Assembly: GCF_010470675.1 (NCBI RefSeq)
Contig: NZ_VOIQ01000004.1
Span: 209,870-273,869 of the forward strand
Source of the DNA: Desulfovibrio sp. JC010
GTDB taxonomy: Bacteria; Desulfobacterota; Desulfovibrionia; Desulfovibrionales; Desulfovibrionaceae
DNA length: 64,000 bases
Direction: 5' to 3'
The notes under the pieces are model-generated. The model saw nothing but the letters and a program-made list of their open reading frames with translations, ran no database searches and was not told the origin of the DNA. Of this stretch, positions 1,715-58,860 are shown one piece after another. A program made the position numbers and the translations under genes. How positions within the stretch are numbered: position 1 is the stretch's first letter; every line of letters starts with the position of its first letter.

Positions 1715-1816
1715 ATGCCTCCGGCGGGTCTCCGACGGCCCTGCCGGGGGCCTCTCCGAGGGCTTAAACCCTTTGAAAAGGGTTTAAGAATCCCAAACTT
1801 TTTTAATAAGCTATCG
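1715..1816 (+). repeat. Modular intergenic repeat, long-stem type A
   Basis: Contains, in order, the ATGCCTCCGGCGG head, a CCCTGCCGGGGGCC G/C hairpin, the type A stem TTAAACCCTTT/AAAGGGTTTAA, the linker GAATCCCAAACTTTTTT and a degraded AAGCT tail. It lies upstream of ilvD and faces another copy at 1911-1998, so together they form an inverted pair that fills most of the 314-base gap between ilvD and ftsX. Confidence 0.85.
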
Positions 1817-1910
1817 CTCTGTGTTGCAGTAGATAGCAGGTTAATATGAAAAATTTCCTTTTATGAGGAATGGCCTTTGGATATTGAAAATGCTCATTTG
1901 AGCTAGGAAA

Positions 1911-1998
1911 CGGCGAAGCCCTGATAAAAAGTTTTAGGAGAGTCCAGAGAACCCTTTTCCAAAAGGGTTCTTTGGTCCCCGAAGGGCCGCCGGAGGCA
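1911..1998 (-). repeat. Modular intergenic repeat behind ftsX
   Basis: Reverse-orientation copy: CGGCGAAGCC tail, AAAAGTTTT linker, a stem of the form AGAACCCTTTT/AAAAGGGTTCT, then GGGCCGCCGGAGGC. It ends seven bases before the ftsX stop codon. The stem mixes features of the two stem types (ACCC as in type A, CCAGAGAA as in type B), which suggests recombination or gradual divergence between subfamilies. Confidence 0.85.
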
Positions 1999-2005
1999 AT
2001 AAAAC

Positions 2006-2893
2006 TTAATTCTTAACAGCCACAAAGCTGCTCAGCATTCCGATCAGGGTGACGGTTCCTGCCAGTATAAGGCATTGTTCCGGGGGCAGGAAGGTCAGTT
2101 TCATGAATAGGGGCGGAAAATTCAGGATATCTGCGAAAAATTGCTGGGCAGCGTATAGGATACCTAGGGCTGTAGAACTTCCGACAAGTCCGAGCAGTGC
2201 CCCTCCGGTGAGGAGCGGAAGGCGGATAAACCATTGTCTGGCGCCAACGAGATAGAGGATTTCTATTTCGTCTTTGCGGGTCATTAGCGAAAGGCGCATG
2301 GTGTTGCCGACAACGAGTGCGACAATGAGTCCGAGGAAGCCGATGATAGGCCAGACTATGGATTGGGTCAGGCTGATCCAGCCCCTTGCAAGGTCAATCT
2401 GCAGGGGATTGTAATGCACCTTGTCCACAAAGGGAAGTGCTTTAAGGTCGTGTAATAAATCAGCGGCCCAGCGTTCATTTTCCACTCCCGGTTCCACTGA
2501 AAAAGAGAGCAATGCGGTGGGAGGCAGGGGATTGCGCGATTCGCCGAGCCATGAAAAATCGTCACTGTCGCTGAGTGCTTCGGAAAGCTGCTTGAGGGCG
2601 TTTTCCGGGGTGAAGGTACGGATATCTTTGAGCCCTTCGATGTTTTTTAGGTCGGCCCATTGTTTTTCATAATCTTCAGCCGGGGTGTTGGCGACCCAGA
2701 AAATCTGGATTTCCACCTGTCCTTTACTTTTGAGCAGTTCCTGATTGACGTTGTGCAGGGTGAGCATGAACAGCCCGGCAAGGATTGAAACCATGGTCAC
2801 GGCCACAAGGGTGAAGATGTTGGCCCACGGGTGCAGCCCCATATCGCGGATACCCCGGCCGATGAGCCTGAAAAAGAGACCTAACATTTGCAC
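2006..2893 (-). CDS. ftsX: Cell division ABC transporter permease-like protein FtsX
   Basis: A 295-residue FtsX-family membrane protein. FtsX pairs with FtsE at the septum and transmits ATP hydrolysis to periplasmic cell-wall hydrolase regulators. The sequence shows a first membrane helix near residues 24-46, a large extracytoplasmic domain up to about residue 170, and three further hydrophobic stretches near 175-200, 225-250 and 265-290, the standard FtsX topology. The start overlaps the end of ftsE by 13 bases, so the two are translationally coupled. The partner hydrolase or EnvC-like factor is not in the window. Confidence 0.93.
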   Translation of the reverse strand: MQMLGLFFRLIGRGIRDMGLHPWANIFTLVAVTMVSILAGLFMLTLHNVNQELLKSKGQVEIQIFWVANTPAEDYEKQWADLKNIEGLKDIRTFTPENALKQLSEALSDSDDFSWLGESRNPLPPTALLSFSVEPGVENERWAADLLHDLKALPFVDKVHYNPLQIDLARGWISLTQSIVWPIIGFLGLIVALVVGNTMRLSLMTRKDEIEILYLVGARQWFIRLPLLTGGALLGLVGSSTALGILYAAQQFFADILNFPPLFMKLTFLPPEQCLILAGTVTLIGMLSSFVAVKN

Positions 2894-3570
2894 AGCTCCG
2901 AGGTCAGGAATTCGGGCGGTTCGCTGAGCTGGCCGTCTTCAAGGTGGATGATCCGTGCATCAGGTACGCAGCGCAGGATTTCCCGGCTGTGTGTGGCCAT
3001 GACAACGGTGGTGCCATGGGTATGAAATTGCTTGAATACGTCCATCAAATGCAGGGAAAGTTCAAAGTCGAGGTTTCCGGTGGGTTCGTCGGCAATGATC
3101 AGTTTGGGATTGACCACCATGGCCCGGGCGATTGCCACCCGCTGCTGTTCGCCGCCGGAAAGGGAGCCGCATTTGGAATAGCTTTTCTTTTCAAGACCGA
3201 GAGCGCGGATGATGGCCCGGACCCTTTTATCAACCACAGATTTCGGCATGCTGCGCACGGTCAGGGCGAGAGATACGTTTTCGTATACCGATCTTTCAGG
3301 CAGAATTTTAAAATCCTGAAAGACCACACCCAGCTTGCGGCGCAACATGGGAATCTGGTTGCGTTTGATATTATGCAGGTCGTACCCGGCAACGGATGCC
3401 TGACCGCGGGTGAGCGGCAGGGCACCGTAAAGAAGTCGCATGAGCGTAGTCTTGCCTGCTCCGGAATGCCCGGTCAGAAAGATGAATTCCCCTTTTTCTA
3501 TATGCAGGGAAATATCTTTTAAAGCCCAGTTGGAGCCGAAGTTGTATGAAAGACGGTTCAGCCGGATCAT
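2881..3570 (-). CDS. ftsE: Cell division ATP-binding protein FtsE
   Basis: A 229-residue ABC ATPase with Walker [10 protein letters not shown] near residues 34-42, the signature [14 protein letters not shown] near 137-150, Walker [13 protein letters not shown] and a switch histidine in MATHSRE. These match FtsE/LolD-type ATPases, and the overlapping ftsX gene identifies it as FtsE. It acts on the cytoplasmic face of the divisome. A small lipoprotein gene lies 20 bases upstream on the same strand and may be co-transcribed. Confidence 0.95.
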
Positions 3571-3590
3571 TTAATATACCGTGAAAAGGG

Positions 3591-3944
3591 CTAGAATTTA
3601 ACTTTCATCTTCTGGCCGTCGGAAGTACTGCAACTGCCTGTTCCGCCGCCTTCGAATTCCTCAGCCTGTTTTTTCATTGCGAACTCGCAATTCATGCTGA
3701 CCCCGTCATGGCTGTACAGGGTGACGGTTTTTTCTCCGAAATGCATCTCACCGTTGAAAACGGTTTCATCAGGAAGCTGGGCCTTGACGGAATATGTTTT
3801 CAGCCCGCGCTGCTTGAATGCGGACATTTCCACCGGGCCGAGGGCTTCGCCTTTATCAGATGTAACTTCACCGTTCATCATTACAGGGGCGCAGGCCGCA
3901 AGGCTCAGCAGCAGGATGGTCAAAGCAAAAAATCTGTAGATCAT
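3591..3944 (-). CDS. Small lipoprotein of unknown function
   Basis: Starts at the ATG encoding MIYRFFALTILLLSLAAC, since the in-frame extension upstream is hydrophilic and lacks a ribosome site. The protein is 117 residues with a clear lipoprotein signal peptide (LAAC lipobox, cysteine near residue 18). The mature part is about 100 residues of alternating polar strands with two further cysteines (NCEF and GSCS), likely a disulfide in the periplasm. No family is recognised. It precedes ftsE-ftsX, so a link to the envelope is plausible but unproven. Confidence 0.8.
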   Translation of the reverse strand: MIYRFFALTILLLSLAACAPVMMNGEVTSDKGEALGPVEMSAFKQRGLKTYSVKAQLPDETVFNGEMHFGEKTVTLYSHDGVSMNCEFAMKKQAEEFEGGGTGSCSTSDGQKMKVKF

Positions 3945-4278
3945 ATTATTTAACTCCTCGATTGGGGTTGTAGCAGGGGTGGGACGGTTTTGCAAAAAAC
4001 ATTATCTAAAGCCGCCTTTTGGGGTTGATTTCGGTAAACGGTTAAAAAACAGAGTTGTAAAGTGGGATATCTTCCACAGAGAGATTTACGTTTTTGCTGT
4101 TTTCCATTAAGTTCGCCAGTAGAGCATGGACCTTAGTAACAATCCTGACAACTCTGCGCCCTTTTGGCGCATCTTCAGATTAAGTTTCGTAACTGGTTGA
4201 ATTTCTTGGTTACGGTACATGCTTAAGCATCGTCAATGGCCGTGGATAAACATATAACTCAAGCAGCAGGAAAGGGAT
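3945..4278. other. Divergent promoter region without recognisable genes
   Basis: A 334-base gap between the lipoprotein gene and the aminotransferase, which are transcribed apart. A small perfect hairpin (TGCGCC CTTTT GGCGCA, 4155-4171) is present, and a weak AAAGGG ribosome site precedes the aminotransferase ATG. No consensus promoter boxes could be assigned with confidence. Confidence 0.5.
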
Positions 4279-5454: not shown

Positions 5455-5552
5455 AAATTACGTAAAGATAGTCATATTTGATTGATTAAAAAATCATCCT
5501 CTCCCGGTAATCATTGCCGGGAGAGGATGCAACCCATACCAGGAGATCGAAT

Positions 5553-9301: not shown

Positions 9302-10969
9302 ATGAGCACTCTGAGTGCTGAAGAAAAATACCGCAATTTCATTCCTGAAGAGAGCCGCGAATATCTTGAAAAGCTTTTTGCCGATTTTAAACGGCCCGTT
9401 ACCATTGAGGTCTACACTGCAGACGGCGAACATCGTGAATACAACGAATTCACCCTGAATATCTGCCGGGCCTTCAATGTGCTCAGCGACAAAGTTGAAC
9501 TGCGTGAATATGCCATGGACAGCGAAATGGCTAAAAACCGCAATATCATCGCCACCCCCACAGTGCTTATTTCCCCGGATGAATACGATATCCGTTTTCT
9601 CGGTGCTCCCGCAGGGGAGGAAGGCCGCGCTTTGGTTGAAGCAATCAATCTCGCCTCCAAAGGAGTGGATGGGATTTCCGATCACACACAGGAAATACTT
9701 GATCCCCTTGAAGAAGACAGGCTGATCAAAATCTTTGCCAGCCCCACCTGCCCTTACTGCCCCGGACAGGCCATCAATGCCTTTAAGGCCGCCGTCGCAA
9801 GGCCGGACAAAATTTCAGCATGGAATGTCTCCACCCTTGATAATGAAAACATGGCCCGCGAATATAATGTCGGTTCTGTCCCGCATACCAACATAAATGA
9901 TCAGGTTGATTTCATGGGACTGGAGCCGGAAGATAAATTCATGCTTCAGCTGCTCTTCCTCAAACCTCTCGAAGAAGTCATTGAAGAGCAGAAGGCCATG
10001 AAAACGTCTAAACCCGACGACACTGTCTACGAAGACATTGATCTGGTCATTATCGGCGGCGGGCCTGCCGGGATGAGTGCCGGAATCTACGCCAAACGCA
10101 GCGGCATGAGCTGCATCATCCTTGAGAAACAAGGTGTGGGCGGACAGGTGGCTCTTACTCCCAAAGTGGAAAATTATCCCGGATTCACCCAGATCCAAGG
10201 CTTTGAGCTGGTTGATATTCTCGGTGCCCATGCCCGCGAGTACACGGAGATAGAACAATTCGCAGAGGTCAAGGAAGTTAAGCACGGACCGCGCATCGAG
10301 ATCACTACTGAAGACAAAACCTACCGGGCCAAAGGCGTCATGCTTGCCACCGGGGTCAACGTGCGCATGCTAGGCGTTCCGGGCGAAGATAAACATTACG
10401 GTCATGGGGTCAGCTATTGCGCTACCTGCGACGGCAACTTTTATAAGGGCGGCAAGGCTCTCATTGTCGGCGGCGGCAACACCGCGCTTACCGATGCCCT
10501 GCACCTCAAGCATCTGGGTATTGAAACCACCATCGTACATCGTCGCGACAAATTCCGGGCCGAGAAAGTTCTGCAGGATTCCGTTGAACGCGAAGGAATT
10601 GAAATCATCTGGGATGCTCAGGTAACCGAGATTATCGGCGAAGATCAGGTGGAATCAGCCCGTATCGTCAAGAAGGACGGCACTGAGATCATTCACGACA
10701 CCGATGTGGTCTTCGTTGCCATCGGCCATACCGCCAACACCGAGCTGGCCGAAAAACTGGGTTGCGAACTGCGTGACGACGGATTCATCAAGGTCGATCC
10801 CACCCAGCGCACCAGCGTTGAACGGGTTTACGCAGCAGGTGACGTAACCGGAGGCGTGCGCCAGATCATCACCGCCACCGGGCAGGGAGCTGCCGCTGCA
10901 CTGACCGCGTTTGATGATTTCACCAGGCTCTTTGATGATACCCAGGAAGTAACTAAGAATATTTGGTAA
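9302..10969 (+). CDS. AhpF-like thioredoxin reductase with N-terminal double thioredoxin fold
   Basis: A 555-residue fusion. Residues 1-120 form a thioredoxin-like fold without a CxxC, residues 121-225 a second with CPYC at 150-153, and residues about 245-550 a thioredoxin-reductase module with FAD motif GGGPAG (252-257), redox pair CATC (373-376) and NADPH motifs GGGNTA and HRRDKFRA. This is the domain order of AhpF, which passes electrons from NAD(P)H to AhpC peroxidase or to thioredoxins. No ahpC is adjacent, so its partner is elsewhere. A clean AAGGAG ribosome site precedes the ATG. A repeat follows directly after the stop. Confidence 0.92.
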   Translation: MSTLSAEEKYRNFIPEESREYLEKLFADFKRPVTIEVYTADGEHREYNEFTLNICRAFNVLSDKVELREYAMDSEMAKNRNIIATPTVLISPDEYDIRFLGAPAGEEGRALVEAINLASKGVDGISDHTQEILDPLEEDRLIKIFASPTCPYCPGQAINAFKAAVARPDKISAWNVSTLDNENMAREYNVGSVPHTNINDQVDFMGLEPEDKFMLQLLFLKPLEEVIEEQKAMKTSKPDDTVYEDIDLVIIGGGPAGMSAGIYAKRSGMSCIILEKQGVGGQVALTPKVENYPGFTQIQGFELVDILGAHAREYTEIEQFAEVKEVKHGPRIEITTEDKTYRAKGVMLATGVNVRMLGVPGEDKHYGHGVSYCATCDGNFYKGGKALIVGGGNTALTDALHLKHLGIETTIVHRRDKFRAEKVLQDSVEREGIEIIWDAQVTEIIGEDQVESARIVKKDGTEIIHDTDVVFVAIGHTANTELAEKLGCELRDDGFIKVDPTQRTSVERVYAAGDVTGGVRQIITATGQGAAAALTAFDDFTRLFDDTQEVTKNIW

Positions 10970-10973: not shown

Positions 10974-11058
10974 ATGCCTCCGGCGGCCCTGCCGGGGGCC
11001 TTAAACCCTTTTGGAAAAAGGGTTTAAGAATCCCAAAACTTTTTGATAAGCTTCGCAT
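10974..11058 (+). repeat. Modular intergenic repeat, type A stem, full copy
   Basis: The cleanest plus-strand copy: ATGCCTCCGGCGG, then CCCTGCCGGGGGCC, then a TTAAACCCTTTT/AAAAAGGGTTTAA stem, then AGAATCCCAAAACTTTTT and the AAGCTTCGC tail. It starts five bases after the reductase stop codon, just ahead of a conventional terminator. Confidence 0.9.
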
Positions 11059-13705: not shown

Positions 13706-13774
13706 TCCGGGTCCATCCACTACCCGGACGAATGTCGGGAGGTTTTAACCCTTTCAGGAAAAGGGTTTAAAACC
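13706..13774. other. Two further stem-loops next to the GAPDH 3' end
   Basis: TCCGGGT (13706-13712) pairs with ACCCGGA (13722-13728), and GGTTTTAACCCTTT pairs with AAAGGGTTTAAAACC (13741-13774). The second stem resembles the type A stem of the modular repeat but lacks its head and tail. Together with the hairpins at 13580 and 13637 the 318-base gap is almost entirely structured. Confidence 0.6.
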
Positions 13775-18933: not shown

Positions 18934-19018
18934 AGCGGCGAAGCCTAATAAAAGGTTTTGGGATTCTTAAACCCTTTTGCAAAAGGGTTTAAGGCCCCCG
19001 GCAGGGCCGCCGGAGGCA
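18934..19018 (-). repeat. Modular intergenic repeat supplying the lysE ribosome site
   Basis: A reverse copy: AAGCGGCGAAGCC tail, AAAAGGTTTTGGGATTC linker, TTAAACCCTTTT/AAAAGGGTTTAA stem, GGCCCCCGGCAGGGCC hairpin, then GCCGCCGGAGGC. The GGAGG at the end lies eight bases before the lysE ATG and is the only Shine-Dalgarno candidate. Confidence 0.9.
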
Positions 19019-19617: not shown

Positions 19618-19725
19618 GATGCGCTATCGCGCTTTTTAATAAAAAAATTTCGCCTCCGGCGGCTTAAACCCTTTTTGAAAAAAGGGTTTAAGAATCCCAA
19701 AAACTTTTATTTGAGCTTCGCTGCG
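19618..19725 (+). repeat. Modular intergenic repeat with full head hairpin
   Basis: This copy shows the outer module best: GATGCGCTATCGCGCTTTTT head hairpin, ATTTCGCCTCCGGCGG, the type A stem TTAAACCCTTTTTG/AAAAAAGGGTTTAA, AGAATCCCAAAAACTTTT and GCTTCGCTGCG. It starts two bases after the lysE stop. Confidence 0.9.
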
Positions 19726-21352: not shown

Positions 21353-21460
21353 AGCGGCGAAGCCTATTAAAAGTTTTTGAAGAGTCCAGAGAAACTTTTT
21401 CCAAAAAGTTTCTTTGGCCGCCGGAGGCGAAATCGTTCCATAAAAGCGCGAAGCGCATCA
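21353..21460 (-). repeat. Modular intergenic repeat, type B stem, between luxS and mtnN
   Basis: Reverse copy with tail AAGCGGCGAAGCC, AAAAGTTTTTGAAGAGTCC linker, AGAGAAACTTTTT/AAAAAGTTTCTTT stem and GGCCGCCGGAGGCGAAATC plus the AAAAGCGCGAAGCGCATCA head. The head overlaps the mtnN stop (TGA from TGATGCGC), so the repeat contributes the stop codon. Confidence 0.9.
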
Positions 21461-26222: not shown

Positions 26223-26328
26223 GGTGGCGAAGCCCTACTAAAACGTTTTGGGATTCTTAAACCCTTTTGGAAAAGGGTTTAAGTCGCCGGAGGCAAAATC
26301 AATTCATCAAAAGCGCAAAGCGCATCTA
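26223..26328 (-). repeat. Modular intergenic repeat, type A stem, behind fabD
   Basis: GGTGGCGAAGCCC tail, AAAACGTTTTGGGATTC linker, TTAAACCCTTTT/AAAAGGGTTTAA stem, TCGCCGGAGGC and the AAAAGCGCAAAGCGCATC head. The G/C hairpin module is missing in this copy. Confidence 0.88.
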
Positions 26329-32286: not shown

Positions 32287-32300
32287 AAAAAACTCTCCTA

Positions 32301-32324
32301 AAAAGTGTACGATCGGTTACTTTT
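32301..32324 (-). promoter_or_regulatory. HipB operator 1
   Basis: Core GTGTACGATCGGTTAC flanked by AAAA and TTTT. It overlaps the -10 region of the promoter called at 32322-32349, so bound HipB would block transcription. Confidence 0.82.
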
Positions 32325-32349
32325 ACAGACAAAAAGGCAAAAAAGTCAA
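32322..32349 (-). promoter_or_regulatory. hipBA promoter
   Basis: On the minus strand TTGACT (32344-32349) and TGTAAA (32322-32327) are 16 bases apart, between operators 1 and 2. The spacing is slightly short, but no better pair is visible. Confidence 0.62.
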
Positions 32350-32350
32350 C

Positions 32351-32374
32351 AAAAGTGTACGATCGGTTACTTTT
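32351..32374 (-). promoter_or_regulatory. HipB operator 2
   Basis: The same 24-base element as operator 1 (core GTGTACGATCGGTTAC), exactly 50 bases upstream and abutting the -35 box. Confidence 0.82.
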
Positions 32375-32400
32375 TCTAAAAACAAAGCACAACACGCGCA

Positions 32401-32424
32401 AATAGTAACCGTTCGGTTACTTTT
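32401..32424 (-). promoter_or_regulatory. HipB operator 3
   Basis: AGTAACCGTTCGGTTACT is a nearly perfect dyad and shares CGGTTACTTTT with the other two. It starts exactly 50 bases beyond operator 2 and overlaps the stop codon of the dienelactone hydrolase gene. Confidence 0.78.
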
Positions 32425-34467: not shown

Positions 34468-35709
34468 ATGACTCAAACTTCCAACATCTTTAAGCGCATT
34501 GCATCCGGCAGTCTGGTAGTCCAGATCATGGTCGGTATTGCAGCAGGTATAGCTCTGGCAACCGTTGCTCCTGAAGCAGCAAATTCCGTAAGCATTCTGG
34601 GCAGCCTCTTCGTTAAGGGCTTGAAAGCAGTTGCACCCATTCTTGTTTTCGTAATTGTTGCAGCGTCTATCGCCAACCAGAAGAAAGGCGCACACACCAA
34701 CATGCGCTCCATTATTTCTCTCTATCTCGTAGGTACTTTCATGGCTGCCCTCGTTGCAGTTACCATGAGCTTCCTCATGCCTACCACCCTGACTCTGGTT
34801 GCTACCGACACCAGTGCAACCCCTCCGGGCGGCATTGCTGAAGTTCTGAACACCCTGCTCTTCAAGATCGTGGATAACCCGGTCAACGCCCTCTACACCG
34901 GTAACTTCATCGGTATCCTTGCCTGGGCCCTTGCTCTCGGCTTCTTTTTCCAGCATGCAAGCGATTCCACCAAGCAGATGCTCAACGACCTCTCCGACGG
35001 CGTTTCCGGCATTGTTAAGCTGGTTATCCGCTTTGCTCCTCTGGGTATTTTCGGTCTGGTATCCAACACCATCGCCACCACCGGTTTTTCCGCACTGGCA
35101 GGATATAGCCACCTGATCATGGTTCTGCTCATCTCCATGGGTACCATGGCCCTGATCATCAACCCGGCCATCGTTTTCTTCAAGACCAAGCGCAACCCCT
35201 ACCCGCTGGTGCTGACCTGCCTGCGTGAATCCGGTATCACCGCATTCTTTACCCGCAGCTCCGCAGCAAACATTCCGGTGAACATGGAACTGTGTAAGAA
35301 ACTCGACCTGCACGAAGATACTTACTCCGTATCCATCCCGCTGGGTGCTACTGTAAACATGGGCGGCGCGGCTATCACTATCACCGTGATGACCCTTGCT
35401 GCTGTTCACACCCTCGGTATTCAGGTTGATATCGCAACCGCACTGCTGCTCAGCCTCATCGCTTCCGTATCCGCATGCGGTGCTTCCGGTGTTGCCGGCG
35501 GCTCCCTGCTGCTGATTCCCCTCGCATGTTCCCTGTTCGGCGTTCCCAACGAAATCTCCATGCAGGTTGTTGCTGCAGGTTTCATCGTGGGCGTAATTCA
35601 GGACTCCGCTGAGACCGCACTGAACAGCTCCACCGACGTTATCTTCACCGCAGCTGCCGACATCGCAGCCAAACGCGGCGAAGTTGCAGCTGAAACTGTA
35701 AAGGCATAA
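34468..35709 (+). CDS. sstT: Serine/threonine:sodium symporter
   Basis: A 413-residue SstT of the dicarboxylate/amino-acid:cation symporter family. Hallmarks are the serine-rich re-entrant loop [11 protein letters not shown], the VNMGGAAIT segment (family NMDGT-like) and the [19 protein letters not shown] re-entrant region. It takes up serine and threonine with Na+. The ribosome site GGGGGAT precedes the ATG. A truncated repeat and a terminator follow. Confidence 0.94.
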
Positions 35710-35713: not shown

Positions 35714-35753
35714 ATGCCTCCGGCGGCTTAAACCCTTTTATTTGGGCTTCGCC
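35714..35753 (+). repeat. Truncated modular repeat
   Basis: ATGCCTCCGGCGGC followed by TTAAACCCTTTTATTTGGGCTTCGCC: only one arm of the stem is present, joined directly to the tail. An internal deletion between the two arms explains it. Confidence 0.85.
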
Positions 35754-35765
35754 AACTTAGCTTAT

Positions 35766-35875: not shown

Positions 35876-35980
35876 AGGGATTCCAAAGGGGCTTAGCTCC
35901 TTTGACCGCCGGAGGCGAAATCTTTTCATGAAAAAGCGCGATAGCGCATCAAGTCAAAGCCCCCGGCAGGGCCGTCGGAG
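35876..35980 (-). repeat. Modular repeat with partial tandem head, upstream of the helicase
   Basis: GGGATTCCAAAGGGGC... reduced stem, GACCGCCGGAGGCGAAATC, AAAAAGCGCGATAGCGCATCA head, then a second partial GCCCCCGGCAGGGCCGTCGGAG. The final GGAG lies seven bases before the TTG start at 35988. Reading frames that start inside this element are artefacts. Confidence 0.8.
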
Positions 35981-35987
35981 ACATCAA

Positions 35988-38874: not shown

Positions 38875-39531
38875 ATGCCCAGAAAGTTGCTGCTTGGTTT
38901 GATGGTTCTGTTTTTAGTTCTGCTGACCGCTTGCAGTCAGCAGGAAGCGACTTTCTACGAACTCAGCTTTGAGCAGGATAAAATAATACTAATCGACAGC
39001 AATAAGCCTTTCAGCGGCATATATACCGAATATTACGACTCTGGACAGCAGTTTCCCAAAAGCCGGATCATAATAAAAAACGGGGTCATGAACGGCAGGT
39101 TCTACCATTATTACCCGGACGGCAAGATGCGTGAAAAGGGAACCAACCGAGACGGTAAAATATACGGTTACCATTCCCTGTACTGGCCCAACGGCAAGAT
39201 CAAAGAAAAGTTCTTTGTAGGTCGTGACAAGGCCGGATATAACTACGAATATTTTGACAACGGCAAGATCAGGGAAATGCGCCATTACAACGCGCTAAGT
39301 CAATTGAACGGAAAATCCTTCACCTTCCACCGCAACGGCAAGGTCAAAGAAGAAATGAACTATCGTGACGGCAAGCGCGACGGCTTACTCATCATCAGGG
39401 ACAAAGCCGGATTTCTGGTCAAGGTCTTTGAGTATCGCGATGACGTGTTGCAGGAGCGCGCCCGAGAGCATGATGACCTCTCGGATCACTCCAAATATTC
39501 AGCCATGGTGACCATGTTTTATAATTTTTAG
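38875..39531 (+). CDS. MORN-like repeat lipoprotein
   Basis: A 218-residue lipoprotein, start MPRKLLL with AAGGAGG five bases upstream (a GTG six bases earlier is the alternative). Lipobox LLTAC near residue 19. The mature part is built of about five MORN-like/YwqK-type units such as YYPDGKMREKG, YWPNGKIKEKF and FHRNGKVKEEM. YwqK relatives are annotated as putative antitoxins in Bacillus, but no toxin is next to it. It follows the helicase with ten bases between and is probably co-transcribed. Its role in the envelope is unknown. Confidence 0.83.
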   Translation: MPRKLLLGLMVLFLVLLTACSQQEATFYELSFEQDKIILIDSNKPFSGIYTEYYDSGQQFPKSRIIIKNGVMNGRFYHYYPDGKMREKGTNRDGKIYGYHSLYWPNGKIKEKFFVGRDKAGYNYEYFDNGKIREMRHYNALSQLNGKSFTFHRNGKVKEEMNYRDGKRDGLLIIRDKAGFLVKVFEYRDDVLQERAREHDDLSDHSKYSAMVTMFYNF

Positions 39532-39623
39532 TGCCTTCGGCGGTGCTTTCAGCGGGACCAGAGAAACCTTTGAAAAGGTTTCTCTGGACTCTTCCAAACT
39601 TTTTTGTCGGGGCTTCGCCGCTT
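39531..39623 (+). repeat. Modular intergenic repeat, type B stem, behind the lipoprotein
   Basis: GTGCCTTCGGCGG head fused to the stop codon, a GCTTTCAGCGGG segment, the CAGAGAAACCTTT/AAAGGTTTCTCTG stem, GACTCTTCCAAACTTTTTT and the GGGCTTCGCCGC tail. Confidence 0.9.
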
Positions 39624-39642
39624 CGTATTAAAAATAGTGCAA

Positions 39643-39710: not shown

Positions 39711-39833
39711 TGCGAAGCTTACTAAAAAAGTTTGGGATTCTTGCACCAGCCCTTAGGCGAGCGGCTTCCGCGAGTCTTAGGGATGGCGACAGTGGAACAA
39801 ACCCTTTCCAAAGGGTTTAAGCCGCCGGAGGCA
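39711..39833 (-). repeat. Modular repeat interrupted by a 56-base insertion
   Basis: Outer parts match the family (ATGCGAAGCTT tail, AAAAAAGTTTGGGATTC linker, AACCCTTT/AAAGGGTTTAAGCCGCCGGAGGC). Between GGGATTCTT and AAACCC sits about 56 bases (39743-39798) with its own CCCTTAGGC/GTCTTAGGG symmetry, absent from the other copies. Confidence 0.85.
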
Positions 39834-39836: not shown

Positions 39837-41210
39837 TTACTTCCCAGAAATCTTATATTTCTTCAATTTATACTGCAGCAGGCTCTTGGAGATACCCAGC
39901 ATTTCAGCGGCATCAACTTTTACAAAGTTGCTGGCAACCAGTGCCCGGCGCACCAGCGTGGCTTCGATCTTGTCCAGCGTATCGGCAAGATTAAGCTTTG
40001 CGGGCAGCAAATCTACCGCGCTTTTGAACTGAGCTTCTTCATCCTTGATTTCAGCAGGCAGATCTTCGGTATTAATGACCGTACCGGAAGTGAGCACAAC
40101 ACAACGCTCCACAACGTTCTGCAACTGACGCACGTTTCCGGGCCATTCGTAGGCAGTCATGTAATCCATTGCAGCCGGGGCGAACCCGTCAAATTCCTTG
40201 TTATTGTCAGCGGAATAAGTGGCAAGGAAGTGATCCACCAGAAAAGGAATGTCCTCGCGCCGTTCACGCAAAGGCGGCATTTCAATACTGACCACATTTA
40301 AACGGTAGTAAAGGTCTTCACGGAATTCGCCCTTTTCCACCGCTTCCTTGAGATTCTTGTTGGTGGCGGCAACAATACGGATGTTAACCTTGATCGGTTC
40401 TCCCCCGCCCACACGCTCAATGGTTTTTTCCTGCAATACACGCAGCAGCTTAACCTGCATGTCGTGGGAAATTTCACCGATTTCGTCGAGGAAGAGTGTA
40501 CCCTGATCGGCAGCCTCAAAACGGCCGCGCTTACGGGCCACGGCTCCGGTGAAGGAACCTTTCTCATGACCAAAGAGTTCACTTTCCAGCACCCCGGCAT
40601 TAAAAGCCATGCAGTTTACAGAGACAAAAGGTTTGTCGCAACGCGGTGAAGCCTGATGGATAGCCTGTGCAACAAGTTCCTTACCGGTTCCGGATTCCCC
40701 GGTGACCAGCACGGTGGAGCTGCCCGGAGCGGCTTTGCTGATCATATCAAAAACCTGCATCATGGGTTTGGAGCGACCGATGATGTTGCTCGGTGAATAG
40801 CGGTCCTTGATCTGCTCGCGCAGTTGTCTGTTCTCCTGCTGCGCTTTGGCGAACTGGGCCGCCTTGGTCACAGAAAGAAGCAGTTCTTCATTGGCGAAGG
40901 GTTTGGTGATGTAATCAAAGGCCCCGATTTTCATGGCCTCCACAGCGGATTCAATAGAACCGAAGGCAGTCATAATGATCACCGGAATGTGCGGAAAATT
41001 TTTTTTCACATGCTCCAGCACATCCTGTCCGGTCAACTTGGGCATTTTCATGTCAGTGATGACCATGTCAACTTCCGATTCATCAAGATAGGCCAGTCCG
41101 GTTTCCGGGTCGGAAAGTGCGGTTATGGTATAGCCCTCATCTGAAAGCAGTGCTTCCAGAATAAGCAGGTAGTTCTGTTCATCGTCCAGTATGAGAATAT
41201 TTGCAGACAT
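39837..41210 (-). CDS. Sigma-54-dependent response regulator (NtrC family)
   Basis: A 457-residue regulator with REC domain (phosphoacceptor D53), AAA+ sigma-54 interaction domain with Walker A GESGTGKE near residue 170 and GSFTGA in place of GAFTGA, and a C-terminal Fis-type HTH (about 415-455, RRALVASNFVKVDAAEMLGISKSLLQYKLKKY). It activates sigma-54 promoters after phosphorylation. It is encoded directly downstream of its histidine kinase, three bases apart, so the two form a two-component pair. The signal and target genes are not identifiable here. Confidence 0.95.
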   Translation of the reverse strand: MSANILILDDEQNYLLILEALLSDEGYTITALSDPETGLAYLDESEVDMVITDMKMPKLTGQDVLEHVKKNFPHIPVIIMTAFGSIESAVEAMKIGAFDYITKPFANEELLLSVTKAAQFAKAQQENRQLREQIKDRYSPSNIIGRSKPMMQVFDMISKAAPGSSTVLVTGESGTGKELVAQAIHQASPRCDKPFVSVNCMAFNAGVLESELFGHEKGSFTGAVARKRGRFEAADQGTLFLDEIGEISHDMQVKLLRVLQEKTIERVGGGEPIKVNIRIVAATNKNLKEAVEKGEFREDLYYRLNVVSIEMPPLRERREDIPFLVDHFLATYSADNNKEFDGFAPAAMDYMTAYEWPGNVRQLQNVVERCVVLTSGTVINTEDLPAEIKDEEAQFKSAVDLLPAKLNLADTLDKIEATLVRRALVASNFVKVDAAEMLGISKSLLQYKLKKYKISGK

Positions 41211-41213: not shown

Positions 41214-42647
41214 TTAACAATCTTTTTTTTCAGGTAAAAATATTTCCAGACGCGCCCCGCCTTCAGAATTGTTCCCGATGCGCAGCTTTCCGTTATGGCT
41301 TTCCACAATATTGGTCACAATGGCAAGCCCCAAGCCTGTTCCGTTATCCTTGGTGGTAAAAAACGGATCTTTGACCTTTTCTATAATTTCGTCCGGGAAT
41401 CCCGTGCCGGAGTCGGAAACAATCACATTGATTCCACCGTCAGTTTCAGCAATGGAAACAGCGATATGTCCATCCTTTTCCACGGCCTGCATGGCATTGC
41501 CGATGAGGTTGTAAAAGGCCCGGTAAAGCAGGTCTTCGTCAGCGCAGACCTGATGCCCCGGTATATAATCACGTCGCAGTTCAATATTGCTTTCCCTGCA
41601 TTTGGATTCCAGAAACATATAAATTTTATCCAGCAGCTCGGCAGGATCAAGTGCGTGCATGGCAATCTTGCGCGGTCTTGCGTAATCAAGAAAATCGCTT
41701 ACTGTGCGGCTGAGCCGCTTGGTTTCCTCATGAATGGCTCCCAGGATTTTCACATTGACCGGATCACTGTCTTTCATCCTTTTAAGCAGCAATTCCGAAC
41801 TGGAACGGATAATACCCAGCGGATTACGAATTTCATGAGCCACCCCGGAAACCATACGCCCGATGCTGGCCAGTTTTTCACTCTGGTTCAGTTCTTTTTC
41901 AAACTGCCTGCGTTCCAGCATACGCTGTTCATTTACAATGTCAGCGCGGCGGATTATGGCCATAATGGTGGCAAAAAGAATGAGTGCCGAAAAGCTGGAG
42001 GTGAACAGAATCAAGCGTTCAAAGTTAATAACCGACTGATAGTCATCAGTAATATCCTGAGTTAGCTCCATCACGCCCATAATAATGTTTTCTTCGATAT
42101 TCAGGCTCTTTTCCGAACGCAGCGGGTAAACAATCTTAAGCTGCATTGTTCCCGGACGCATATGGAAATCAAAGATCAGGGCCAGGGTGGATTTCTTTTT
42201 AATGAATTCATAACGCGGCTTACCGCTCTCAAGGACTTCCTTGATAAATTCACCGGCAAGTTCTTTATTCCCGATTTTCTCAGTATCAGTGGAATAGGAA
42301 ATAGTCAGTTCCGGGTCATAGATACGTACTTCATTGACCTTGAAGCTGTGTATTGTGGAACGGACCACCTGATTCAGACGGTCCATCTGTTCCTCGTTTT
42401 TCAGCCCGATACGACCGTATCCGATAAGTGTAGGCAGAATAAAACGGCGGTAAATCTGGTGGTTCAGGTTTTCAGCCTGCAAAAGCGCGAATTCCTTCTG
42501 TTTCTCCAGAAGGGTTTCATCCGCGTGCTTAGCCAGAAATACGGAAAGCCCCAGACTGCTGGCAATGATGACGATCAGCAAAGTCCACGATAAAAGCTTA
42601 ACAAGCTGGAATGATTTTACTTGTAGGTCCTGATGTTGTGAATCCAA
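41214..42647 (-). CDS. Membrane sensor histidine kinase
   Basis: A 477-residue kinase with one helix near residues 19-40, a periplasmic sensor of about 160 residues, a second helix near 210-232, a HisKA domain with phosphorylated H271 in VAHEIRNP and an ATPase domain with GTGLGLAIV. The start codon is TTG, with GGAGG six bases upstream supplied by the adjacent repeat. Its partner is the sigma-54 regulator downstream. The sensor domain has a PAS-like strand pattern ([13 protein letters not shown]), so a small-ligand cue is plausible. Confidence 0.93.
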
Positions 42648-42650: not shown

Positions 42651-42732
42651 ATGCCTCCGACGGCCCTTTCAGGGGGACCAAAGAAATTTTTTGTAAAAAG
42701 TTTCTCTGGACTCTTCAAAAACTTTTAATAGG
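42651..42732 (+). repeat. Modular repeat, type B stem, upstream of the kinase
   Basis: ATGCCTCCGACGG head, GCCCTTTCAGGGGG hairpin, CAAAGAAATTTTTT/AAAAAGTTTCTCTG stem, GACTCTTCAAAAACTTTT and AATAGG. Its reverse complement ends in CCGTCGGAGGC just before the kinase TTG. Confidence 0.88.
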
Positions 42733-45094: not shown

Positions 45095-45610
45095 TTATTT
45101 ACTGGATCGTGAAAGGGCCAGCGCAAGGGCGGTGGTCAGTTTGACCAGTTCAGTATTGTTGCGGCGCACTGTGGCGGCCAGCCTTTTGCTGATGGTCATA
45201 AGCATCTTGCCGCCGATGGGCGGATGAGCTGCAGCAAGCTCAAAAAATTTCATGCGGTCGGTGACCAGAAATTCGGAATCCTGCACCACGGTCACTGTGG
45301 CTGAGCGATGGTCGCGGTCAATGAGGGCGATTTCCCCGAACATGGGGTAGCTGCTGTCATCGAGGTTGGCCAGTACTTTGCTGGTGTTTTTGATTTCTGT
45401 GAGCGGCAGGGTCATGCCTTTCATGAGCATGGCTTTGGTGATGCGTACCTTTCCATCCACAAGGATGAACATTTCGTCCCCTTCTTCACCTTCGGAAATA
45501 ATGTCCGTGCCGGAACGGACCGCGATGCTGGCAAAGATGGGTTTGACCTGCTGCAATTCTTCCTCGTCCAGATTCTGGAAAAGGGGGATGGATTGCCAGT
45601 AATCAGCCAT
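45095..45610 (-). CDS. Cyclic-nucleotide-binding-domain protein
   Basis: A 171-residue single cNMP-binding domain (about 10-150) with the phosphate-binding cassette GEIALIDRDHRSATV: the glycine-glutamate and the arginine-serine of ligand binders are present. No DNA-binding or kinase domain follows. The gene overlaps the potassium-channel gene by eight bases, so the two are translated together. It would be a free regulatory subunit of the channel or of another protein. Ligand identity (cAMP, cGMP, c-di-nucleotide) cannot be read. Confidence 0.85.
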   Translation of the reverse strand: MADYWQSIPLFQNLDEEELQQVKPIFASIAVRSGTDIISEGEEGDEMFILVDGKVRITKAMLMKGMTLPLTEIKNTSKVLANLDDSSYPMFGEIALIDRDHRSATVTVVQDSEFLVTDRMKFFELAAAHPPIGGKMLMTISKRLAATVRRNNTELVKLTTALALALSRSSK

Positions 45611-46751
45611 GTTCCACTCCTGTGGAACTGCTGATAACGAGCAGGGCGTCGTACTCGTCCATGGGTTCGTTGTCCGGGGGATTCATCTGGACTTTCGGGC
45701 CCTGCATGCCCAGCGAGGTGTCCTGCCCGGAAGTCTTGAAAAGTTCCATGATGAACTGGTCCAGTGCCGAGCCTTCGTCCAGCACATCCTGAAGACTGAG
45801 GTTTTTGCCCAGTTTGCAGGCCGCTACCGGAAGGTCTCCGCTGCTGTTTCTGATCCGGGTGCTCAGTTCACCCCAGTCCAGTTGCTGTTCTTCATTGTTG
45901 CAGGGCCGGAAAGTAAGCATGCCTGAATCACCGAGTCCGATGAGGTTGCGGAAAAAGGACCACATGGAAGGGCTGGCACCCATCATGCCCATCATGCGCC
46001 CGGATATTTCCCCGCGGACGAGGATTTCATTGGCCCCGGCCCGGAGCAGGTGTTCTTTATTTTCCTGGCGGGCAATTTCCGCATAGACCGGAACCTTCGG
46101 GGCCAGAGTGCGCAGGGCCAGCACCGCGTATATTGCCTGCTGGTCGGATTCTTTGCTGTCCAGACCGCTCTGGCAGAGTACGTAGACATTGCGGGCCACG
46201 GACGGGTTGGCTCTTGAAATGACATTGGCCTGACTGATGTTGCCGTGAACGAAGTTCAGCCGGTCACCCATGTCCAGCCTGAAGGCTATTTCGTCGCGGA
46301 CTTCGCTTTCAAGGCTGCTGACTATGACCAGTTGCAGCTTGCGCGGATCGGTCTGTTCGGTAAGTGATTCGATAAGCCCGAAGGCATAGTCGTTCCAGCC
46401 CAGTATGATTACGTGGTCGCTGACTTTCACAGATAGCAGCCCCTTGCGTTTTTTGGCTTTCTGCTCCACCAGCATGGAAGCCATGTTACCGGTAAGTGAT
46501 GCAACTAGCCCTATGCCGAAAATCATGACCAGTGCGCCGAGAATTCTGCCAGGCATTGAGTTGGGGACCATATCGCCATAGCCCACAGTGGTCACGGTTA
46601 CGATTGTCCACCATAATGCATGGGAAAGCCGGGCATCCTCGCCTTCATGGAGTTCTATCCAGTAGAAAGCAAGGGTGCTTAAGATGAGCAGCAGGGCCGT
46701 GGCAATAACAAGCTTGCCGAATCCCGATTTAAGCCAATTGGTAAATTTCAT
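45603..46751 (-). CDS. Potassium channel with RCK-type regulatory domain
   Basis: A 382-residue channel: helix 13-31, pore loop with selectivity filter TVGYGD (55-60), helix about 69-90, then a TrkA-N/RCK-like domain (about 108-240) whose nucleotide loop reads GWNDYA instead of GxGxxG, and a second C-terminal domain. The degenerate loop suggests NAD is not bound in the usual way. It overlaps the cNMP-binding gene by eight bases. The ribosome site GGAGG is supplied by the adjacent repeat. Confidence 0.87.
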   Translation of the reverse strand: MKFTNWLKSGFGKLVIATALLLILSTLAFYWIELHEGEDARLSHALWWTIVTVTTVGYGDMVPNSMPGRILGALVMIFGIGLVASLTGNMASMLVEQKAKKRKGLLSVKVSDHVIILGWNDYAFGLIESLTEQTDPRKLQLVIVSSLESEVRDEIAFRLDMGDRLNFVHGNISQANVISRANPSVARNVYVLCQSGLDSKESDQQAIYAVLALRTLAPKVPVYAEIARQENKEHLLRAGANEILVRGEISGRMMGMMGASPSMWSFFRNLIGLGDSGMLTFRPCNNEEQQLDWGELSTRIRNSSGDLPVAACKLGKNLSLQDVLDEGSALDQFIMELFKTSGQDTSLGMQGPKVQMNPPDNEPMDEYDALLVISSSTGVEHG

Positions 46752-46756: not shown

Positions 46757-46853
46757 ATGCCTCCGGCGGCCTCGCGGGGCGCCCTGCCGGGGGCCTTAAA
46801 CCCTTTTGCAAAAGGGTTTAAGAATCCCAAAACCTTTTATTAGGGCTTCGCCT
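46757..46853 (+). repeat. Modular repeat, type A stem, upstream of the channel gene
   Basis: GCCTCCGGCGGCCTCGCGGGGCGCCCTGCCGGGGGCC double G/C module, TTAAACCCTTTT/AAAAGGGTTTAA stem, GAATCCCAAAACCTTTT and GGGCTTCGCC. Its minus-strand end CCGCCGGAGGC gives the channel's Shine-Dalgarno. Confidence 0.9.
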
Positions 46854-46918
46854 CTGGTGATAGAAAGTTATTCTTATTTATATATCCTGTAATTACTCTT
46901 AAATTCAAGCATAAGAAA

Positions 46919-53859: not shown

Positions 53860-53877
53860 ATAAGTTCAGGTTTGCGG

Positions 53878-53928
53878 AAAAACGAATCCCCTGTGACAGG
53901 CTGTCGCAGGGGATTCGTTTTTTTTATG
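53878..53928. terminator. Bidirectional terminator between rex and the sigma-54 regulator
   Basis: AAACGAATCCCCTG pairs with CAGGGGATTCGTTT with an internal small arm; T tract on the plus side. Confidence 0.9.
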
Positions 53929-53929
53929 G

Positions 53930-55405: not shown

Positions 55406-55537
55406 CAGTATTTCCGATCGAATTCAATTTGAGGTATAGTGTAAATAATCAAGAGCCCTAAGAGGCATATGAGCACACGTTTGACAGCTAATCAACTATT
55501 TTTGTTTTTCGGTTGACTGGGTGGTCCCAGTAGGTTA

Positions 55538-55566
55538 GTTGACAAGTCAACGGTTGACTGATCAAC
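55538..55566. promoter_or_regulatory. Tandem operators of the MarR regulator
   Basis: GTTGACAAGTCAAC (55538-55551) is a perfect dyad, and GTTGACTGATCAAC (55553-55566) an imperfect one, 15 bases centre to centre. A further GGTTGACTG half-site lies at 55511. They sit just before the marR gene. Confidence 0.78.
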
Positions 55567-55584
55567 AAACAAAGAGCATTGGAA

Positions 55585-56043
55585 ATGGTAAAAAAACACG
55601 TTTCATTCGGATTCATGAATAGCCAGATGGCCAGATTGCATAAAGCTATTCTAGCGGAAAAATTAAAAGATCTGGGCATCACCTACGGACAGATCGGTTT
55701 CATCATGCAGGCGACAAGGTATCCGGGGCGGTCGCAGGATGAACTCTCAACTGTTTTGAGTATAGATAAAGCTGCTACGGCCAGAGCTGTAGCAAAATTG
55801 ATCAAAGAAGGCTTTTTGTACCGCAAGGAAAACCCTGACAATAAGCGGCAGAAGCTGGTTTACCCTACCGGGAAAGCACTGGCTGTAAAAGAAGACCTTC
55901 ACCGGGAACTGATGGATTCCAACCGGAGCATGCTGTCCGGGCTTACAAAAGAAGAAGCTGAAAAGTTTATAGAATTAATGGTCAAAGTAATTGATACAAG
56001 CCGGGAAAATCTGGGCATGCCGCGGGTTTGGGATTATTTATAG
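55585..56043 (+). CDS. MarR-family transcriptional regulator
   Basis: A 152-residue MarR regulator starting at ATG MVKKHVSF (a TTG six bases upstream is the alternative). The winged helix is GRSQDELSTVLSIDKAATARAVAKLIKEGFLYRKENPDNKRQKLV. It is likely an autorepressor of the downstream drug-efflux MFS gene, as in classic MarR-MFS pairs. The tandem operators just upstream support this. The inducing ligand is unknown. Confidence 0.92.
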   Translation: MVKKHVSFGFMNSQMARLHKAILAEKLKDLGITYGQIGFIMQATRYPGRSQDELSTVLSIDKAATARAVAKLIKEGFLYRKENPDNKRQKLVYPTGKALAVKEDLHRELMDSNRSMLSGLTKEEAEKFIELMVKVIDTSRENLGMPRVWDYL

Positions 56044-56063
56044 GAATATTTCTGGAGAATTTT

Positions 56064-57488: not shown

Positions 57489-58177
57489 TGGCGGAAATTA
57501 ATATCAGTGCTGCGGATATTCTGGGCGCGGCAAGCAAGGCCGGGCGTAAGCTTAGGGACAATCCTGCACAGGATGAAGGGTTCAAGGCAGCAACCGATCA
57601 GGCAAGGGTACTGGCCTACTACGTGACCCTGCTGGTCAAGTGGAACAAGTCCATGAATCTGGTCGGTCCGCAGGGCTGGGAGCAGATTTTTCATTCCCTG
57701 ATTATCGACAGCCTGCATCTGGCAGATTCTCTTGATTCGCTGGATCTGCCCAATGATCCGGTCACCCTCGACCTCGGAGCCGGGGCCGGTTTGCCCGGAA
57801 TCCCTCTGCGCTGTCTCTGGCAGGCCGGGGATTACCATTTGGTGGAAGCGCGCCAGAAGCGTTCCGTGTTCATGCGCACTGCCCTGCGGATGATGAAGCT
57901 GCCGCGTATAGAAGTTTTTCAAGGCCGTGCGGAAAAATTTCCACAGGAAAAACTTCCCGCTGATTTGATTCTCAGCAAAGCCTTTATGCCGTGGAAGGAT
58001 CTGCTGGAATTCGTAAAACCCATGCTGGCAGAGTCGGGCCGGATAGTGATTTTATCTAACGACCCTGCGCCCTCAGAGCAGGAATTTGAAGAATTAGGAC
58101 ATACTCTGCAAGATTCCATGCAGTACAAGGCCGGGGATAAAAAGCACTACTTCTGGTGCTTGAGGGCGTTAGGATAG
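57488..58177 (+). CDS. rsmG: 16S rRNA m7G527 methyltransferase RsmG
   Basis: A 229-residue RsmG (GidB). It uses SAM to methylate G527 of 16S rRNA; loss gives low-level streptomycin resistance. The SAM motif LDLGAGAGLPGIPL lies near residues 96-109, and NLVGPQGWEQIFHSLIIDSL is a family signature. The ATG overlaps the TAA of the MFS gene. Being in a drug-efflux operon is unusual and may only reflect operon shuffling. Confidence 0.95.
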   Translation: MAEINISAADILGAASKAGRKLRDNPAQDEGFKAATDQARVLAYYVTLLVKWNKSMNLVGPQGWEQIFHSLIIDSLHLADSLDSLDLPNDPVTLDLGAGAGLPGIPLRCLWQAGDYHLVEARQKRSVFMRTALRMMKLPRIEVFQGRAEKFPQEKLPADLILSKAFMPWKDLLEFVKPMLAESGRIVILSNDPAPSEQEFEELGHTLQDSMQYKAGDKKHYFWCLRALG

Positions 58178-58182
58178 GTCAA

Positions 58183-58491
58183 TCAGTTGTCGTTTCCATA
58201 TGCCTGGTCACATCCCTTTTTGCAATTTGCGTTGTCTGCGGGCTTGCCTGAATATCTCCTGCATATAAGTGAATAACATTCATTTTTAGCAGCTTCTTTG
58301 GGTCTGTTGAAGTCAACACGTCTATGCATATAGCCGTAGCATCCATAGTACGAAGCACCGGAAGTTCCACCGCAATAACGTTTTCTTAATTCAGCGGCAA
58401 AGCTTCCTGCTTTTCCGGCAAAGCAGGGAGTACTGAAGAGCAGTGTGAAAACAACCGTAAGCAAGAAAATATTTTTTCCATGTTTAACCAT
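58183..58491 (-). CDS. Small secreted cysteine-rich protein
   Basis: A 102-residue protein with a signal peptide (about residues 1-25, ending PCFA). The mature part carries six cysteines (YCGG, GCYG, ECYS, ICRR, NCKK, GCDQ), fitting three disulfides in the periplasm. No family was recognised. The AAGGAG ribosome site is good. It is the tail-to-tail neighbour of rsmG. Confidence 0.82.
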   Translation of the reverse strand: MVKHGKNIFLLTVVFTLLFSTPCFAGKAGSFAAELRKRYCGGTSGASYYGCYGYMHRRVDFNRPKEAAKNECYSLICRRYSGKPADNANCKKGCDQAYGNDN

Positions 58492-58521
58492 CGAAGAAAT
58501 CTCCTTGTTTGAATTAGAAAA

Positions 58522-58743
58522 CTACTCTTCTTCCTGCCCAGCCCCTGAAAGAGCCTCCAGCAAACCGCCTTTGAAGATCAGCTTGGTGGCATGTTCGTCA
58601 GCAATTTCAGCCACGTCCATGAGCTTCTCAAGGAATTCGAGAATTTCAAATCTCTTCTCTTCAGTCCCGTTATCAAATTCAAATTTCATATCACCGGAAG
58701 TCATGTATTTTTCCAGTCTTTCAAGGTAATCCATCTTAAGCAT
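58522..58743 (-). CDS. Small acidic protein of unknown function
   Basis: A 73-residue, strongly acidic, mostly helical protein without cysteines, signal or recognised family. The ribosome site GGAGAG is well placed before the first ATG. It lies 30 bases upstream of the cysteine-rich gene on the same strand and may be co-transcribed with it. Confidence 0.75.
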   Translation of the reverse strand: MLKMDYLERLEKYMTSGDMKFEFDNGTEEKRFEILEFLEKLMDVAEIADEHATKLIFKGGLLEALSGAGQEEE

Positions 58744-58772
58744 AAGTCTCTCCAGTAGCGGGAATTATATAT

Positions 58773-58860
58773 CCCGGCGGCCAAAGAAACTTTTTTCAAA
58801 AAGTTTCTTTGGCCGCCGGAGGCGAAATCTATTGATCCAAAAGCGCGCAGCGCCTCAAGT
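58773..58860 (-). repeat. Modular repeat, compact type B copy with mirrored ends
   Basis: CCGGCGGCCAAAGAAAC/GTTTCTTTGGCCGCCGG forms an almost perfect long palindrome, then AGGCGAAATC and the AAAAGCGCGCAGCGCCTCA head. The outer CTTCGCCGC tail is missing and replaced by a second CCGGCGG arm. It lies 14 bases from the rlmH stop. Confidence 0.88.

Follow-up and report, generated by a model that had tools for sequence, protein, structure and literature searches.

A modular intergenic repeat of Desulfovibrio sp. JC010 and other Desulfovibrionaceae with a parallel arm-linker code, and its possible reading as an intrastrand DNA triplex

Several bacteria carry interspersed, intergenic repeats in which three successive segments of one strand can fold as arm, arm and third strand, the described examples being the PIT elements, BoxC and TM-ECO (Holder et al. 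2015, PMC4666352). The sections of that work drawn on here define ITxF/PIT motifs by a homopurine central arm, AAT, GGC and TAT triads, stems of 6-15, short loops and at most one mismatch, name the triplex classes, with TM-ECO of E. coli in class II, and describe copy numbers that differ greatly among relatives, deletions at the site and a transposase partner that was not found. A second point of comparison is formed by repetitive extragenic palindromic (REP) sequences and bacterial interspersed mosaic elements (BIMEs) with their REP-associated tyrosine transposase (RAYT), which are short palindromic repeats interspersed outside genes in hundreds of copies, some of them in inverted pairs. Designed alternate-strand triplexes are reportedly due to de Bizemont (1996) and Brodin (1999). 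Oligonucleotides of this design joined to a peptide have also been described (PMC3660596), and in the extracts of that work considered here the third strand crosses from a purine tract of one strand to a purine tract of the other. The subject of the present work is a modular intergenic repeat found in 64,000 nucleotides of Desulfovibrio sp. JC010 (contig NZ_VOIQ01000004.1; this whole stretch is called the window), the stem and linker of which obey a letter code that may reflect folding as an intrastrand triple helix.

A full copy of the repeat consists of a head (GATGCGC-TTC-GCGCTTTT), about 8 variable bases, GATTTC, a module termed S (GCCTCCGGCGGC), optional mini-hairpins (CCC-N3-GGGG), a long stem, a linker and a tail (GGCTTCGCC), and the head, S and tail mini-hairpins often have GAA or GGA loops when the other strand is read. 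Fourteen copies are present in the window, in the module order reported by the initial annotation and at, or a few bases from, the positions it listed (Table 1). Its remark that modules can be lost was borne out at 35714, where 3' arm and linker are missing, and at 58773, where the linker is missing, and its two stem types, A and B, were found as described except that the copy at 35876 has neither and that at 39711 bears an insertion at the stem apex. Judged from sequence, these elements resemble the PIT, BoxC and TM-ECO motifs in their putative working, in copy numbers that vary strongly among relatives, in deletions at the site and in having no detected transposase partner, while being unrelated to them in sequence, having arms that vary widely with the third strand following, switching in JC010 from purine to pyrimidine within an arm, and holding the core inside a larger modular element with head, S and tail. 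The repeat would belong to class I and TM-ECO to class II, and the repeat is anchored at gene ends in JC010 whereas TM-ECO has no preferred distance in the cited sections of Holder et al. (PMC4666352). The TM-ECO/BoxC consensus CCCTCNCCC-N3-6-GGGNGAGGG-N3-GGGNGAGGG gave no match to its first two arms in the window and no match as a whole in 225 sequences (two duplicates skipped). The repeat shares with REP/BIME elements the short palindromic form, the scatter outside genes in hundreds of copies and the inverted pairing of some copies, and differs from them by its third-strand segment and mirror code and, in JC010, by the lack of a detected Y1_Tnp gene; compared with the designed triplexes, which are synthetic oligonucleotides, it would represent a counterpart occurring in nature, built in one strand and dispersed through genomes. 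In the open-access literature searched, no description of Desulfovibrio intergenic palindromes, of natural alternate-strand triplex repeats or of this repeat was recognised, and the occurrences of the S sequence seemed unrelated to it.

The initial annotation regarded scarcity of copies elsewhere in the genome as evidence against a family, and a scan of the JC010 genome (4.39 Mb, 64 contigs) returned 312 exact S modules (GCCTCCGGCGGCY) compared to 0 for the reversed control; a BLAST search with one copy gave at least 53 matches, with 40 of 323 candidates scored. In 464 kb of sampled sequence, a hairpin score of at least 9 followed 44 of 57 exact S modules and 1.6% of 570 shuffled flanks, and chance composition is ruled out by these two comparisons. 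The sample comprised the window and 20 stretches of 20 kb, some picked for containing matches already seen, and its copy density is biased and gives no genome-wide estimate. At least one match to GCCTCCGGCGGCY occurs in 132 of 149 Desulfovibrionaceae genomes and 38 of 44 genera, although a few matches per genome are within chance as judged by controls, which reached at most 8. Counted from the table of matches, 58 of the 149 genomes, in 20 genera, have at least 20 (the highest being 372, in genome G080), whereas no genome from the other five families of the order exceeds 5, and the nine genomes of the own genus range from 2 to 312. Named loci that bear elements point to Desulfovibrionaceae, with Solidesulfovibrio, Pseudodesulfovibrio and Halodesulfovibrio among them. 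The organised, modular intergenic family seen in the window is abundant in JC010 and in many members of this bacterial family.

The hairpin-linker unit may occur more widely than Desulfovibrionaceae, because a similar unit is present on both plasmids that were inspected, one of Novosphingobium and one of the IncP group, out of 30 plasmid records matching a 41-base composite query. These are single hairpins with mirrored linkers in other Proteobacteria (Novosphingobium humi plasmid, L193 at about 1498-1540, with an S-like sequence; IncP plasmid pBS228, L194 at about 1500). A 15-base piece of the homopurine unit matched 7 of 297 genomes of the phylum, four of them in the family (1 to 28 matches) and three outside it (one match each); neither of the two out-of-family matches inspected is such a unit. 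At three loci of other genera (L145, L144 and L169) one S module is followed by two tandem hairpin and linker units, each linker matching its own arm.

The initial annotation had noted that stem type and linker change together, and the relation proved more detailed than that, being a parallel (mirror) code over three segments. When the linker is read parallel to the 5' arm of the stem, arm letters translate into linker letters as A→T, G→C, T→A and C→C, which makes the linker approximately a mirror image of the 3' arm or, put differently, a complement of the 5' arm in parallel orientation. Arms in other genera differ widely (CCAGGAGGGGG, CCGGGAGGGG, CCAGAGGGCT, CCAAGGGGC) and linkers vary along with them (ACCTCCCC, ACCCTCCCC, ACTCCCC, AACCCC), and across 31 unique arm/linker pairs from those genera 143 of 180 positions obey the mirror relation, compared to a mean of 105.0 (sd 4.4) in 5000 shuffles, none of which scored as high. 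All 256 possible letter codes were scored by gapped alignment, with the first linker base, a near-constant A at the turn, excluded, and the above code scored highest in other genera (70 arms, z 11.0), in the genus (12 arms, z 3.6, the largest of 5000 shuffles equalling the observed score) and in JC010 (29 arms, z 7.6). It was again highest for the pooled 111 arms (568.5 versus a shuffled mean of 307.3, sd 16.2; z 16.1), a value inflated by composition differences between genomes. Rows were dropped where arms did not begin with family-like letters or linkers contained N, as were the locus L175, identical to L023, from the code tests and alignments scoring below 5 from the triad table. In that table, JC010 arm A lies opposite T 37 times, A 12 times, C once and a gap 11 times, with G-C at 20 of 20 positions, T-A at 111 of 114 and C-C at 49 of 52; the other genera give G-C at 116 of 122, A-T at 21 of 30, T-A at 31 of 35 and C-C at 16 of 28.

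Run lengths follow the same rule, in that the arm T-run equals the linker A-run in 34 of 38 JC010 haplotypes and 13 of 16 from other genomes, including lengths of 3, 6 and 7 (rho 0.89, 0.60 and, combined, 0.78). At the purine-to-pyrimidine junction, a looser set of 30 distinct combinations has n A opposite n-1 T in 24, C runs of the same length in 19 and equal T and A runs in just 14. Hairpins away from S had no significant relation to the code in JC010 (z 0.39, n=74), in a set mostly from other orders (z 0.56, n=72) or in loci of the family (z 1.65, n=213). The top three of the 213 are further code-obeying elements with no S nearby (for example arm GGGGGAAAACCCCTTTT with linker CCCCCTTTCCCCAAAA). 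Elements lacking S have arms such as G5A4C4T4 with linker C5T3C4A4, and a search for that four-block linker matched 10 of the 149 family genomes, with matching arms at some of the loci listed.

It could be argued that the repeat is an ordinary mobile palindrome of the REP or miniature inverted-repeat transposable element (MITE) kind, and that stem and linker are linked only by descent from a few founders. This would agree with the few subfamilies of JC010, where even a decoy code seems significant (z 4.0), and with the spread of copy numbers over the nine genomes of the genus. Descent, however, predicts no single letter code in the differing arms of other genera, where the code nevertheless has the highest score of 256, and the four-block arms suggest that the same code applies in arms that arose independently; with no Y1_Tnp found in JC010 and neither terminal repeats nor target duplications noticed, this explanation is considered unlikely. 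An alternative-hairpin switch, in which the linker covaries by competing antiparallel pairing with one arm, is very improbable: the type B 3' arm AAAAGTTT can indeed pair with the linker AAACTTTT, but the block order of the linker parallels the arm, and in other genera antiparallel Watson-Crick pairing accounts for 21 of 180 positions, a value like that of shuffled pairs, which rules out such a switch there. Selection of the G-rich strand as a G-quadruplex or protein site, with mirror symmetry as a by-product, would suit the many arms of GC-rich genera that are G-runs; A and T positions nonetheless obey the code too, and JC010 arms with T and A runs are poor in G-tracts, which leaves this idea with hardly any probability. 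At the level of sequence, the repeat family and its code are firm.

The geometry of the triads considered here is that of established triplex chemistry. The repeat would be a non-coding DNA element, mobile now or formerly, with an intrastrand triple-helix motif as its core. Along the strand whose S module reads GGAGG, third strand, arm, loop and opposite arm follow one another, an arrangement of class I; the two arms would pair as a Watson-Crick hairpin, whose major groove the 5' third strand would occupy by folding back. Beside a purine stretch of the adjacent arm the third strand would form antiparallel A.A:T and G.G:C triads, and where that arm turns pyrimidine it would switch to the purines of the other arm, with parallel T.A:T and G.G:C triads. 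The third strand then has A, G, T and G opposite arm A, G, T and C, with no need of a third-strand or protonated C. The GGAGG strand fits better because an arm C facing a linker C on the opposite strand has no standard triad, a preference that rests mainly on JC010 copies. In cells the triplex would probably form while the DNA is transiently single-stranded, the folded form would be what a host or mobilising factor recognises, evolution would have kept the three strands matched, and copies would spread through a trans-acting factor other than RAYT.

Triads were counted for class I only, with a loop-2 limit of 9 nt compared to 6 in the published definition. Under the strand-switching rule, at least 8 triads with at most 1 mismatch were obtained in 30 of 49 JC010 cores versus 0 of 245 with shuffled linkers, and at least 8 triads in 6 of 16 cores of the same genus and 11 of 70 of other genera (25 of 70 at 6 triads). 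Under the homopurine class I rule, JC010 gave 0 of 49 at 8 or more triads and 2 of 49 at 6 or more, the same genus 0 of 16, and other genera 11 of 70 and 34 of 70 at these two thresholds. JC010 copies therefore lie outside the published ITxF/PIT homopurine definition, while sharing with those motifs that they are intergenic (66 of 86 sampled S matches are outside open reading frames, ORFs), interspersed and, as the genome scan showed, over-represented. Triplex folding is the best available explanation of the code and is regarded as fairly probable. The broader proposal that these are natural alternate-strand intrastrand DNA triplexes whose strands co-evolve across the family, with the triplex itself selected at gene edges and recognised by some factor, is more tentative and is put at somewhat below an even chance.

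Several observations weigh against the triplex reading. The proposal is drawn from sequence, and in the cited sections of Holder et al. (2015, PMC4666352) no support was obtained for the E. coli motif forming a triplex that is stable in vivo. Parallel G.G:C beside T.A:T triads are described as mutually destabilising in the part of PMC4807104 considered here; in the repeat the two kinds lie in separate blocks. As many as 19 of 49 JC010 cores and 10 of 16 from the same genus fall below 8 triads, and the C→C rule, clear in JC010, is not so in other genera. Inclusion of the turn base lowers the code to 13th place in other genera (2nd in the genus, 1st in JC010), and scoring relative to background places C→G first there and the code only 4th. 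In other genera a direct repeat of the 3' arm likewise exceeds the shuffled level, at 98 of 180 positions (47 of 5000 shuffles reached this), far under the mirror relation. Associations among JC010 copies are not independent, the copies being of shared descent. At several loci (L195, L200, L213 and L222, for instance) a linker-like sequence is present and a matching arm is not, and another 82 arm matches lack such a linker, an unsorted set that includes opposite-strand readings and unrelated sequence. In most JC010 copies (for example at window 19690-19706) the linker runs about 4 nt (CTTTT) past the apex, which a hairpin or triplex does not explain. Finally, neither a mover nor an empty site with a target duplication came to light.

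The end of the linker (AAAANNTTTT) is of near-constant length, and its CTTTT supplies the direct repeat of certain short forms. Three of these lack 3' arm and linker between CTTTT repeats (window 35714, locus L006 at 18224 and L023, from the nearest named relative, at 3702), and the JC010 orthologue of the L023 form, the copy at 39531, is intact. Such apparent internal deletions are compatible with a structure that impedes replication. The copy at 42651 contains a break in the alignment with L023 (window 42651-42659 and 6902 versus L023 6765 and 6870), with no copy noticed on the other side of the junction, at window 6902. At two orthologous sites across 16 loci of the genus, repeats are present, absent or of different type, and at the site of the copy at 1911 L023 has, at its contig end, a copy of different make that includes a head. 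The RAYT-type mover suggested by the initial annotation did not materialise: Y1_Tnp (PF01797) was found neither in JC010 (a 99.96% complete draft), which rules out a REP/RAYT mover there, nor in five of the six further genomes of the genus that were tested, the sixth, G105, having it together with only 2 S matches; overall, 7 of 19 genomes tested had a match. Flanking duplications were not noticed by eye among relatives too diverged to offer clean empty sites, and terminal repeats were likewise not noticed.

Closeness to gene ends, which the initial annotation had attributed to nearly every copy, is real and one-sided. This was assessed against ORFs because trinucleotide counts beyond GGAGGC were indecisive in the AT-rich background, taking ORFs of at least 80 aa as genes by a simple rule that leaves start positions uncertain, and using the 54 JC010 copies whose tail or linker end could be recognised; the 20 of 86 sampled S matches inside ORFs were excluded. 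In 32 of 54 copies no more than 10 nt separate the head/S end from an ORF boundary, where random placement within the same free space would give 7.3 and none of 200000 simulations reached the observed number. The tail end is as close in 1 of 54; the head/S end is the anchored one in JC010. Stops account for 22 of 29 and starts for 10 of 25, and in 8 of 10 listed start-side copies S ends 4-9 nt before the start codon, with GGAGG placed as a Shine-Dalgarno sequence would be. For headless copies at a 15-nt limit, the own genus gave 10 of 19 at stops and 3 of 16 at starts, and other genera 17 of 65 and 0 of 20.

This placement would favour an RNA element, with transcribed copies acting as hairpins of 3' and 5' untranslated regions that protect or terminate mRNA and the reversed S module as a ribosome-binding site. 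Copies against stop and start codons agree with it, as do those at 35714, 39531 and 39711, which by eye stand between a stop codon and a terminator-like hairpin. The start-side anchoring is, however, weak in the genus and nil in other genera, the arm/linker code is parallel, a mode that RNA secondary structure does not use, and purine-motif triplexes are impossible in RNA according to the cited sections of PMC4666352. As to the terminator function considered by the initial annotation, a T-rich stretch such as intrinsic terminators have directly follows the stem in 1 of 60 JC010 cores in each reading, so that an intrinsic-terminator reading of the long stem is weak. Like descent from few founders, the RNA element is regarded as an unlikely explanation. 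Taken together, what the initial annotation observed is confirmed and how it interpreted this is partly supported.

Table 1. Copies and one fragment of the repeat in the 64-kb window
Position	Strand	Composition	Adjacent feature
1715..1812	+	S and extra mini-hairpins, type A stem (T3 apex), linker AATCCC-AAA-C	
1911..1998	-	S, CCC/GGG mini-hairpin, type B stem (AACCC), linker ACTCTCCTAAAAC, tail	
10974..11056	+	S, CCCTGCCGGGGG hairpin, type A stem, linker, tail	start directly 3' of stop codon of ORF 9302-10969
18934..19018	-	S, CCCTGCCGGGGG hairpin, type A stem (apex GC), linker AATCCCAAAACC, tail	
19618..19724	+	full copy: head GATGCGCTATCGCGC, S, type A stem (T5), linker (A5), tail	
21353..21457	-	full copy: head, S, type B stem, linker ACTCTTCAAAAAC, tail	
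26223..26326	-	full copy: head, S, type A stem (apex CC), linker AATCCCAAAACG, tail	
35714..35756	+	short form: S and 5' arm fused straight to tail at CTTTT; no 3' arm or linker	
35876..35945	-	head, S, stem CAAAGGAGC/GCCCCTTTG, linker GAATCCC	
35950..35983	-	fragment: S and CCCTGCCGGGGG	upstream of helicase gene
39531..39624	+	S, mini-hairpin, type B stem (AAACC, T3), linker ACTCTTCC-AAA-C, tail	
39711..39833	-	insertion at type A stem apex	S end directly past stop of minus-strand ORF 39837-41210
42651..42732	+	S, mini-hairpin, type B stem, linker	
46757..46854	+	S, two GC mini-hairpins, type A stem, linker, tail	
58773..58850	-	truncated copy: head, S, type B stem; linker lost	

Individual copies in the window illustrate these relations. 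The S end of the copy at 1911 is near the end of minus-strand ORF 2006-2893 and the short form at 35714 begins directly after the stop codon of ORF 34468-35709; read in reverse, the copy at 42651 presents GGAGG at ribosome-binding distance from the TTG start of ORF 41214-42647, and that at 46757 presents it 8 nt upstream of the ATG of ORF 45603-46751. The stem of the copy at 35876 contains CAAAGGAGCTAAGCCCCTTTGGAATCCC, similar to a form from other genera (CCAAAGGG/CCCTTTGGAATCCC). The apex insertion of the copy at 39711-39833 has a (C)ACTGTC-like motif; the insertion is also present in L023 at about 3735-3950, the two differing in sequence, and similar inserts occur in L013 at about 17389, L162 and L223. 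A hairpin at 13733-13770 (TTTTAACCC/GGGTTTAA) resembles the type A stem, lacks S and linker, and is possibly a decayed copy. Three direct repeats of about 50 bp at 32291-32424 bear a GTACGATCGGTTACTTTT-like motif and are possibly a regulator or iteron-type site. At gathering thresholds, Rfam left the repeat unmatched and gave two tRNAs as its only matches.

TM-ECO, the bacterial triplex repeat that has been studied best, occurs in near-identical copies, and such copies are unable to show if the triplex matters. The many different arms of the present repeat, with a third strand that follows them, are the triple-helix equivalent of covariation evidence. A genus with 2 to 312 S matches per genome is material for finding the mover, and these repeats offer a handle on why such elements sit flush against genes.

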